The translations under genes and the position numbers were made by a program. Below, piece after piece: positions 30,173-41,892 of a DNA stretch of 64,000 nucleotides. Every line of letters starts with the position of its first letter. The first letter of the stretch is position 1. The stretch comes from an uncultured Eggerthellaceae bacterium. GTDB taxonomy: Bacteria; Actinomycetota; Coriobacteriia; Coriobacteriales; Eggerthellaceae. The notes beneath the pieces are model-generated. The model saw only the letters and a list, made by a program, of their open reading frames with translations, did not search any database and was not told the DNA's origin. The stretch covers positions 1 through 64,000 of the forward strand of contig CAJOIP010000004.1 in NCBI GenBank assembly GCA_905234785.1, written 5' to 3'.

Positions 30173-30622
30173 TTAAGCGCTGACGCCGCTGCTGCCGAAG
30201 CCGCCTGCGCCCCGCTGCGTCTCGGAGAGCTCGTCTGACTCTTCGAGCGTGACGGTGGGAACCGCCATGATGACCAGCTGGGCGATGCGGTCGCCGTGCT
30301 CGATTGCGAAATCGTTTTCCGGGTCGAGGTTGACGAGGATTGCTTTGATTTCACCGCGGTAATCGCTGTCGATGAGGCCGGGCGCGTTGACGATGGAGAT
30401 GCCGTGCTTCGCCGCCAAGCCGCTGCGTGGCAACACGAAGCCCGCATAGCCGCGCGGGATGGCGATGGAGATACCGCAGGAAACGAGCTTGCGCTCAAAC
30501 GGCTTGAGAACAGCCGACTCCGCAGCGCGAAGGTCGAGCCCGGCATCGCCCGGATATGCGTAGGCGGGCATGTCGAGCGTGGCGTCGAGCCGCTTGATGG
30601 GAAGCGTTACCTGGTCGGCCAT
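30173..30622 (-). CDS. dut: dUTP diphosphatase
   Basis: YAYPGDAGLDLRA, PRSGLAAKHGI, NAPGLIDSDYRGEI, RGAGGFGSSG motifs. Confidence 0.95.
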   Translation of the reverse strand: MADQVTLPIKRLDATLDMPAYAYPGDAGLDLRAAESAVLKPFERKLVSCGISIAIPRGYAGFVLPRSGLAAKHGISIVNAPGLIDSDYRGEIKAILVNLDPENDFAIEHGDRIAQLVIMAVPTVTLEESDELSETQRGAGGFGSSGVSA

Positions 30623-30623
30623 G

Positions 30624-31070
30624 CTATCGGAGCTCCTCGAGGGCGGCGGCGAACTCCTCGATGTTCTTGAAGTCCTTGTACACGCTGGCGAAGCGGACGT
30701 ATGCGACGTCATCGAGCGATTCCAGGCGCTCGAGCACCTTCGTGCCGAGGTTCTTCGACGTGATCTCGTTGCGGGGCGCCGCGCGCAGCTCGGATTCGAT
30801 GTCGTCGATGAGGCCGGTGATCTGGTCGGGGGAAATCGGGCGCTTAGCGCAGGCGAGCGTGACGCTGCGCAGCAGCTTGTTGCGGTCGTAGGTTTCGGAT
30901 GAGCCATCGGACTTGGTGACGAGCAGGGGGCTGTCGCCCAAACGCTCGTAGGTCGTGAAGCGATGCTTGCAATCGAGGCATTCGCGGCGGCGACGAATCG
31001 TTGCGCCATCGTCGGACGGGCGCGAGTCTACGACTTTTGATTCGGGGAAACCACAAGATGGGCAACGCAT
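30624..31070 (-). CDS. nrdR: Transcriptional repressor NrdR
   Basis: MRCPSCGFPESKVVDSRPSDDGATIRRRRECLDCKHRFTTYER zinc ribbon plus ATP-cone. Confidence 0.95.
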   Translation of the reverse strand: MRCPSCGFPESKVVDSRPSDDGATIRRRRECLDCKHRFTTYERLGDSPLLVTKSDGSSETYDRNKLLRSVTLACAKRPISPDQITGLIDDIESELRAAPRNEITSKNLGTKVLERLESLDDVAYVRFASVYKDFKNIEEFAAALEELR

Positions 31071-31154
31071 GGTGCATACTCCTTCGTTTAAACTACGTTG
31101 CCCATAGAATACCACGTATATGAGGGAATTAATCTACAAATACAATATATTGAT

Positions 31155-31493
31155 TCATGCTCCGAGGGCGAGGGAAATGACCGCGATGGCCCCAGAGCAA
31201 GCGGACAGGATGGCAATTCCCTGCTTGGTAAACAGGTTGTACGGGCACCCGAGCATGCTTTCGAGCTTCAGGCTGCAGTACATCTCGCTGGATTCGAGGA
31301 TGCGTTTTACCGTGGGCCGCTTGTGTTCTGCGGCTGGCCTTTCCTGCGCGTGCGTGCGGGCAGTGTTGGTGGCGGGTGCATTGTTCCGCGTCGGGAACAT
31401 GATGATCTTCGCATCTTCGGGAGTTTCGGCCCATCGGGGCATCTTCAACGCGGCGGTGCCGTTCGTGTACGCATTGAAATTTCTCTTGCCCAT
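31155..31493 (-). CDS. Small protein with C-terminal TM helix, divergent from lexA; candidate SOS-induced protein
   Basis: 112 aa; strong RBS (GCAGGAGGAAAAATG); C-terminal hydrophobic GIAILSACSGAIAVISLALGA; TTGACA-N17-TATTAT promoter containing a LexA-like operator. Confidence 0.75.
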   Translation of the reverse strand: MGKRNFNAYTNGTAALKMPRWAETPEDAKIIMFPTRNNAPATNTARTHAQERPAAEHKRPTVKRILESSEMYCSLKLESMLGCPYNLFTKQGIAILSACSGAIAVISLALGA

Positions 31494-31507
31494 TTTTCCT
31501 CCTGCAC

Positions 31508-31583
31508 TTGCACAGAACCTTTGTTCGTGTGTATAATAAGCCGAACAAAAGTTCTTGTCAACGAAAAATCAAACATTTGTTCT
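31508..31583. promoter_or_regulatory. Divergent SOS promoter region with three LexA-like operators
   Basis: GAACctttGTTC (31515-31526), GAACaaaaGTTC (31543-31554), AAACatttGTTC (31571-31582). Plus-strand TTGCAC-N18-TATAAT and minus-strand TTGACA-N17-TATTAT. Confidence 0.8.
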
Positions 31584-31596
31584 GAAAGGATGAGAC

Positions 31597-32229
31597 ATGG
31601 CTGATAAGTTGACGAAACGCCAGCAAGCAGTGATGGACAGCATCGAGAAGAGCATACGCGAGAAGGGCTACGGTCCCACCGTGCGTGAAATCTGCGCAGA
31701 TCTGGGCCTCTCTTCGCCCTCCACCGTTCACGTGCACCTGAAAACGCTCGAGCAGAAGGGCTATATCGTCCGCGACCCGCTGAAGTCACGTTCCATCTCG
31801 TTGCCATCGCATGCCGAGGAAACGCCCTCGAACGTCATTCGCCCCAGCTTCAGCAAGATCGTCGATGTGCCCCTCGTCGGCAACGTGGCTGCGGGCGAGC
31901 CCATCCTCGCCGAGGAAAACATCACCGACACCATCTCGCTTCCAACCGACATCGTCGGCGATGCGCCTTCGTTCATGCTGTCGGTGCGCGGGGAATCCAT
32001 GATCGAAGCGGGCATCAACGACGGCGACTACGTGGTCGTCAAGGAACAGCCCGTGGCGAACAACGGCGACATCGTCGTCGCCATCATAGAAGACGGCGCC
32101 ACGGTGAAGCGCTTCTACAGGGAACGCGACCACATTCGCCTGCAACCGGAAAACTCTTCGATGAGCCCCATCATCACGACCGACTGCACTATCGCAGGCA
32201 AGGTCGTCGCCGTGTTCCGCAGAATCTGA
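31597..32229 (+). CDS. lexA: LexA repressor
   Basis: LTKRQQAVMDSIEKSIREKGYGPTVREICADLGLSSPSTVHVHLKTLEQKGYI wHTH plus S24 peptidase domain. Confidence 0.97.
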   Translation: MADKLTKRQQAVMDSIEKSIREKGYGPTVREICADLGLSSPSTVHVHLKTLEQKGYIVRDPLKSRSISLPSHAEETPSNVIRPSFSKIVDVPLVGNVAAGEPILAEENITDTISLPTDIVGDAPSFMLSVRGESMIEAGINDGDYVVVKEQPVANNGDIVVAIIEDGATVKRFYRERDHIRLQPENSSMSPIITTDCTIAGKVVAVFRRI

Positions 32230-40773: not shown

Positions 40774-41832
40774 TTAGCGCTTCTTCGTGGGCTTTTCCGC
40801 GGGCGTGATGGCGTCGGCTTCTTCGGCGGAGCGGGAGATGATGGGGATATCGAAGTGCTCGCGCACTTTCGTTTCGAGCTCGCGAAGCAGGTCGGGGTTG
40901 TCGTGAAGCGTCTGCTTGGCGGCTTCGCGGCCCTGACCGAGGCGTTCTTCCCCGTAGGTGTACCAGGCGCCGCTCTTCTTGGCAACGCCCGCTTCGACGG
41001 CCATGTCGATGACGCAGCCTTCTTTCGAAATGCCCTGACCGTACATGAGGTCGAATTCAGCCTGCCTGAACGGAGGCGCGACCTTGTTCTTGACGACCTT
41101 GGCGCGAACGCGGTTGCCCACCACTTCCCCGTTGAGCTTGATGGAGTCGATTCGGCGAATGTCGATGCGCACGCTGGAGAAGAACTTCAGCGCACGGCCG
41201 CCCGTGGTGGTTTCGGGATTGCCGAACATGATGCCGATCTTCTCGCGGAGCTGGTTGATGAAGATGCAGGTCGTGTTCGATTTCGAAAGAGAGCCAGCGA
41301 GCTTGCGCAGGGCTTGCGACATGAGGCGCGCCTGGAGGCCGACCGTCGTATCGCCGATTTCGCCTTCGATTTCAGCGCGCGGGACGAGCGCCGCCACCGA
41401 GTCGATGACAATGCAATCGATTGCGCCGGATCGCACGAGCATGTCGCAGATTTCAAGCGCTTGCTCGCCGGTGTCGGGCTGCGAGATGAGCACTTCGTCG
41501 ATGTCGACGCCGAGGCGGGCCGCGTAAACGGGATCGAGCGCGTGTTCCGCGTCGATGAACGCGACGATTCCGCCGAGCGCCTGCGCTTCGGCGAGGATCT
41601 GCAGGGCAAGCGTGGTCTTGCCGCTGGATTCGGGACCGTACACTTCGATGATGCGACCACGCGGCACGCCGCCGATGCCGAGCGCGGCGTCGAGCGGGAG
41701 GGCTCCGGTGGGGATGGCGTCTACCTTCAAGTCGACGCCGGCGTCACCGAATTTCATGATGGAGCCCTTGCCGAACTTTCCTTCGATCTGGTCTGTCGTG
41801 AGCTTGAGCGATTTCAGTTTTTCTTCGTTCAT
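40774..41832 (-). CDS. recA: Recombinase RecA
   Basis: [28 protein letters not shown], full-length 352 aa. Confidence 0.98.
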
Positions 41833-41864: not shown

Positions 41865-41892
41865 ATTATACCGAACAGATGTTTGTGGTCAA
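41865..41892 (-). promoter_or_regulatory. recA promoter with LexA-like operator
   Basis: CGAAC-AGAT-GTTTG (41872-41885) between minus-strand TTGACC and TATAAT. Confidence 0.65.

Follow-up and report, generated by a model that had tools for sequence, protein, structure and literature searches.

ChiZ (Rv2719c) of Mycobacterium tuberculosis, a lexA-linked and SOS-induced protein, consists of a disordered cytosolic tail of 64 residues, followed by a helix, a periplasmic linker and a LysM domain; the tail and helix are enough for filamentation and FtsZ-ring mislocalisation, and the protein contacts FtsQ and FtsI (PMC7355643). The LysM domain of ChiZ is, according to a review, apparently unnecessary (PMC3989709). 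In YneA of Bacillus subtilis, which is LexA-controlled and adjoins lexA, the single membrane helix binds TM7 of FtsW and is enough for septal localisation, but without LysM it fails to block division, so that LysM is required (PMC13396833). SosA of Staphylococcus, divergent from lexA, LexA-controlled and devoid of LysM, has an essential outer C-terminal segment, and DivS, the lexA-linked SOS division suppressor of Corynebacterium glutamicum, is named as the exception without LysM (PMC6851548). SidA of Caulobacter, a minimal membrane protein of 29 aa induced by the SOS response, blocks division via an interaction with FtsW (PMC4211646). A search of the open-access literature yielded nothing on LexA control or on SOS division inhibitors in the Coriobacteriia, a major gut group.

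The window designates the whole stretch of DNA that was analysed, i.e. 64,000 nucleotides from an uncultured Eggerthellaceae bacterium. The locus considered here comprises the following features, with the basis of each assignment in brackets:

30173-30622, minus strand: dUTPase-like ORF (ORF list)
30624..31070, minus strand: nrdR, co-directional with the 112-aa ORF (domain matches, locus map)
31155..31493, minus strand: 112-aa ORF, candidate LysM-less protein of ChiZ/YneA type (sequence, homologs, profiles, dN/dS, AlphaFold2)
31158..31226, minus strand: predicted membrane helix, codons 90-112, ending at the stop codon (AlphaFold2 helix 90-111 and family comparison)
31359..31493, minus strand: N-tail, codons 1-45, common to LysM-bearing proteins found at the same place in sister families (tail profiles, HHalign)
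31508..31513, plus strand: -35 element TTGCAC of the lexA promoter (sequence)
31515..31526, unstranded: putative LexA box GAACCTTTGTTC, within the lexA promoter spacer (sequence and conservation)
31532..31537, plus strand: -10 element TATAAT of the lexA promoter (sequence)
31533..31538, minus strand: -10 element TATTAT of the ORF promoter, sharing bases with the lexA -10 (sequence)
31543..31554, unstranded: putative LexA box GAACAAAAGTTC, within the ORF promoter spacer (sequence and conservation)
31556..31561, minus strand: -35 element TTGACA of the ORF promoter (sequence)
31571..31582, unstranded: third LexA-box-like site AAACATTTGTTC, with one mismatch, 5' of lexA (sequence and conservation)
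31597..32229, plus strand: lexA, DNA-binding domain and S24 peptidase (domain matches), the only LexA in the genome

The 112-aa ORF starts with ATG, has AGGAGG shortly 5' of this start and diverges from lexA; its stop lies 84 bases from the start of nrdR. A previous examination of the letters alone (hereafter the sequence-only reading) had assigned these same positions to the ORF and its ribosome site, to the two promoters and to the three boxes. The promoter elements are separated by 17 bp for the ORF (TTGACA to TATTAT) and by 18 bp for lexA (TTGCAC to TATAAT). Since the two -10 elements overlap and each spacer holds one box, LexA could close both promoters. LexA-type control of the ORF, as proposed in that reading, is supported by two exact boxes and one near box, conserved and located in or beside the overlapping promoters. 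Putative boxes in the promoter of the ORF are also what is found in the YneA/ChiZ class.

The 2.26-Mb genome contains 19 copies of the exact pattern GAAC-N4-GTTC, against 32 of a reversed control pattern; a single box therefore carries little weight, and the genome-wide count was discarded as uninformative on a regulon. The significance of the boxes rests on their clustering and conservation rather than on single sites: an exact box was found in the intergenic regions of 86 of 88 relatives vs 0.13% of shuffles, three sites with near-constant spacing were found in 70 of these 88 regions, and the boxes are nearly invariant across Eggerthellaceae loci. Elsewhere in the window, recA (41026-41814, minus strand) has a LexA box with one mismatch, GAACAGATGTTT, at 41873-41884, just 5' of its start. 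In locus L262, around position 1501 (G000:C15:34140), an intergenic AGAACAAGTGTTCG was seen about 20 bases 5' of an ORF that by eye looks RhuM-type and is a possible further SOS gene.

The 112-aa ORF is a real gene under purifying selection at the protein level, with a dN/dS of 0.10 relative to its closest relative and of 0.10-0.46 over nine close family pairs. Its product, put forward in the sequence-only reading as a candidate unrecognised SOS checkpoint protein, gave no match in Pfam or NCBIfam, including the NCBIfam YneA model (NF010723). AlphaFold2 predicted the tail with low confidence and a single helix with good confidence (residues 90-111, block mean pLDDT 84-94), in agreement with the single C-terminal hydrophobic helix ending at the stop that had been noticed in that reading. 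Hydropathy, this helix and a positive-inside count (over 88 family members, a mean of 3.1 K/R in the 20 residues preceding the helix and 0.01 following it) predict a single-pass protein with its N-terminus inside, and on average 0.5 residues extend beyond the helix in these 88 members. The cytosolic tail bears the motifs GTAAL and KIIMFP, and SEMYCSLKLESMLGCPY forms the juxtamembrane segment. The IIxFP motif was considered as a mimic of the FtsZ C-terminal peptide; this idea was dropped, as sister proteins carry VIEGG there.

Conservation was surveyed in 110 lexA-upstream regions of Eggerthellaceae, using lexA as anchor. Of the other 14 genomes in the window's genus (close relatives of which come mainly from ruminant guts according to record titles), 11 contain homologs (32-87% identity), and weaker matches were found in other genera, two of them adjoining lexA. 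The sequence-only reading had named absence of the ORF from close relatives as a point against itself; a divergent membrane ORF is kept in 97 of the 110 loci, adjacent to and divergent from lexA, and the lexA-ORF-nrdR arrangement (the slot) is conserved in the family. Three loci were left unclassified for the ORF (L119, L121, L130). Most sampled genera have retained the ORF with its promoter and ribosome site. Eighty-eight of the 97 ORFs encode 58-188 aa (median 106 aa), start about 100-130 bases before lexA and end with the hydrophobic helix; two are of 33-34 aa (one genus) and seven of 23 aa (Adlercreutzia). The helix is the sole element found in every slot ORF of the family: the 58-aa protein of L028 has kept the helix and juxtamembrane segment and lost the GTSAL tail, and those of L047 and L054 (75 aa) have kept the tail and lost the juxtamembrane segment.

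The Adlercreutzia ORF (e.g. MARYEFPIAFALSTIASFVIFFA) contains little beyond the helix and occupies the same position, with a ribosome site and promoter and under the same LexA boxes, its start lying about 111-115 bases before lexA (Adlercreutzia-type loci L059, L060, L066, L070, L071, L074 and L092). Because variable sites among its eight distinct versions are distributed as 12/5/20 over codon positions 1/2/3, and because its length is constant despite three different stop codons, this 23-aa ORF is probably translated; its derivation from the long form is proposed on the basis of position and promoter, not of sequence similarity.

Ten of the 110 loci, including one from the window's genus, have no ORF, and the slot gene is thus dispensable. 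The -35 element of the ORF promoter was present in 91 of the 97 ORF-bearing loci vs 1 of the 10 ORF-less loci (Fisher p = 1.3e-8, a value that is only indicative, as loci were sorted manually into categories and are related to one another). In L034 (G127), a close relative from the window's genus, the ORF and its -35 are both lost, and two LexA boxes are kept for lexA. A locus that kept the promoter without the ORF would be transcribed directly into nrdR. In the window, the 112-aa ORF, nrdR and the dUTPase-like ORF follow each other in one direction with short gaps (30173-31493, minus strand), and the SOS promoter, from which nrdR is probably transcribed as well, may drive nucleotide-metabolism genes too.

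The slot proteins were compared with those of sister families, i.e. the other families of the same order, which we take to be of Atopobiaceae/Coriobacteriaceae type, judging from the composition of the order. Between lexA and nrdR, these families encode proteins of 136-191 aa made of a tail, a membrane helix and a LysM domain, the tail following for example the pattern Y-x-V-x-G-T-S-A-L-x(n)-F-x-V-I-E-G-G. Three of these proteins were scanned, and matched LysM at 1e-7 to 9e-9 and NF010723 at 2e-16, 9e-14 and 5e-13 (48.8-59.6 bits for a cut-off of 60, the best falling narrowly under it). With a profile of Eggerthellaceae N-tails, 14 of the 20 tails from sister families reached at least 8 bits vs 0 of 4000 shuffled tails, and the converse profile of sister tails retrieved 55 of 82 Eggerthellaceae tails vs 2 of 4920 shuffled ones; aligned against each other with HHalign, the two profiles gave a probability of 95.8%. 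When 1132 ORF fragments were ranked with full-length profiles, slot proteins came at the top. The homologous part of the tail is a short stretch of about 45 residues, recognised through profiles, and the helix alone is insufficient to prove descent. As the tail profiles and the ranking link it to the LysM-bearing slot proteins, the window protein is best interpreted as the product of this same gene, minus the LysM domain.

A domain scan detected no LysM in the 112-aa protein, nor anywhere in the window genome. Relicts of LysM beyond the stop codon or in the upstream region were searched in the 88 ORF-bearing family loci and none was detected, whereas 20 of 20 sister loci scored; a relict beyond the stop or elsewhere in the genome was thus rejected. 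Among 70 sampled Eggerthellaceae genomes, 9 have a LysM (61 have none), in contrast with sister families, and wherever its position was listed it lies away from lexA. As deeper outgroups of the class have a LysM protein in the slot, parsimony makes the form with LysM the ancestral one. In a LexA tree, the Eggerthellaceae form one branch (100/98), and a second pair of LysM-less proteins with the tail kept (L145 and L273, 97-98 aa) is nested in an Atopobiaceae-type clade (99/94). LysM was thus lost independently at least twice, with the tail and helix retained. In other families of the class (L274, L280, L284, L295, L296), the slot ORF has 29-38 aa, with a short segment and one helix in place of a LysM protein, and these are possibly further independent reductions.

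The window protein resembles ChiZ in its layout, i.e. linkage to lexA and a cytosolic tail followed by one helix, but lacks the periplasmic linker and LysM; ChiZ is SOS-induced, whereas induction of the window protein would follow from its LexA boxes. The inverted topology initially suggested for it does not hold, since the cytosolic tail of ChiZ also precedes its helix (PMC7355643); the orientation is shared, and what the window protein lacks is just the outer part with LysM. With YneA, it shares putative LexA control, a position adjoining lexA and a single membrane helix, but YneA has LysM and needs it for the block, and the window protein falls outside NF010723. Like SosA, it is divergent from lexA, under predicted LexA control and without LysM, but its chain stops in the membrane where SosA keeps its essential outer segment. 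It can be likened by description to DivS, lexA-linked and without LysM; the LysM-type region formerly attributed to DivS is contradicted by the literature (PMC6851548). The 23-aa form of Adlercreutzia is similar in size to SidA, which belongs to another phylum, and no common descent is claimed.

Several explanations of the ORF are compared below, of which we favour, with a probability of roughly 0.7, that it encodes the Eggerthellaceae counterpart of the division inhibitors of the ChiZ/YneA class, which are linked to lexA and repressed by LexA, here pared down to tail and helix. That an unrelated protein has instead replaced the usual inhibitor at the slot, as the sequence-only reading proposed ("positional but not homologous replacement"), would agree with the lack of single-sequence similarity to known families, but is very improbable: the profile evidence for a common tail (14/20 vs 0/4000 shuffled, HHalign 95.8%) speaks strongly against it, as do the leading rank of slot proteins among the 1132 fragments and the fact that tail-bearing LysM-less homologs arose also inside Atopobiaceae-type genomes. 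It is likewise unlikely that the homology to YneA-type proteins of sister families, in tail and in slot, conceals a small SOS-induced membrane protein of different function, whether as a TisB-like depolariser or persistence factor, as an adaptor for a protease, or as a nucleotide-metabolism regulator acting with the nrdR and dut-like genes. Roles of this kind are known for small hydrophobic SOS peptides, such as TisB of E. coli, and nrdR and the dUTPase-like ORF do lie downstream in the same direction.

Decay was also considered: after the loss of LysM, the protein would bind the septum without blocking division any longer, and would be disappearing. YneA without LysM localises and is yet inactive (PMC13396833), several lineages have lost both ORF and promoter, and Adlercreutzia is down to 23 aa. 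We nevertheless hold an inactive remnant to be improbable, given dN/dS values of 0.10-0.46, an ORF retained with promoter and ribosome site in most genera sampled, and a 23-aa form which is itself conserved in codon-position pattern (12/5/20), in length and across three stop codons.

The candidate status as an SOS checkpoint protein is thus upheld as plausible. Under the favoured reading of a pared-down ChiZ/YneA-class inhibitor, DNA damage would activate RecA, LexA would undergo self-cleavage and the divergent promoter region common to both genes would open; the 112-aa protein would insert with its N-terminus inside, and its helix would dock on the septal wall-synthesis complex, either FtsW (the window genome has 3 matches to the FtsW/RodA family) or FtsI/FtsQ as reported for ChiZ, so that division would pause until repair is complete. 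The tail may tune the strength or stability of the inhibitor. Action by the helix, with or without the tail, on FtsW, FtsI or FtsQ is inferred from what is known of YneA, ChiZ and SidA and from a layout that is that of ChiZ minus LysM; conversely, as YneA needs LysM and SosA its outer segment, a form without LysM might be inactive or act otherwise. More tentatively, the membrane helix might itself be the inhibitor, in a series going from tail, helix and LysM to tail and helix, then to the 23-residue helix of Adlercreutzia, shorter than the 29-aa SidA; the helix would pair with FtsW in the membrane and stall septal wall synthesis.

The literature is split on the working part of such brakes, YneA needing LysM (PMC13396833) and tail plus helix being enough for ChiZ (PMC7355643). 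As LysM was lost family-wide while the gene, its LexA boxes and selection were kept, with sizes down to 23 aa, the Eggerthellaceae make this question directly testable, and nature may already have run the truncation experiment on ChiZ/YneA-type brakes.
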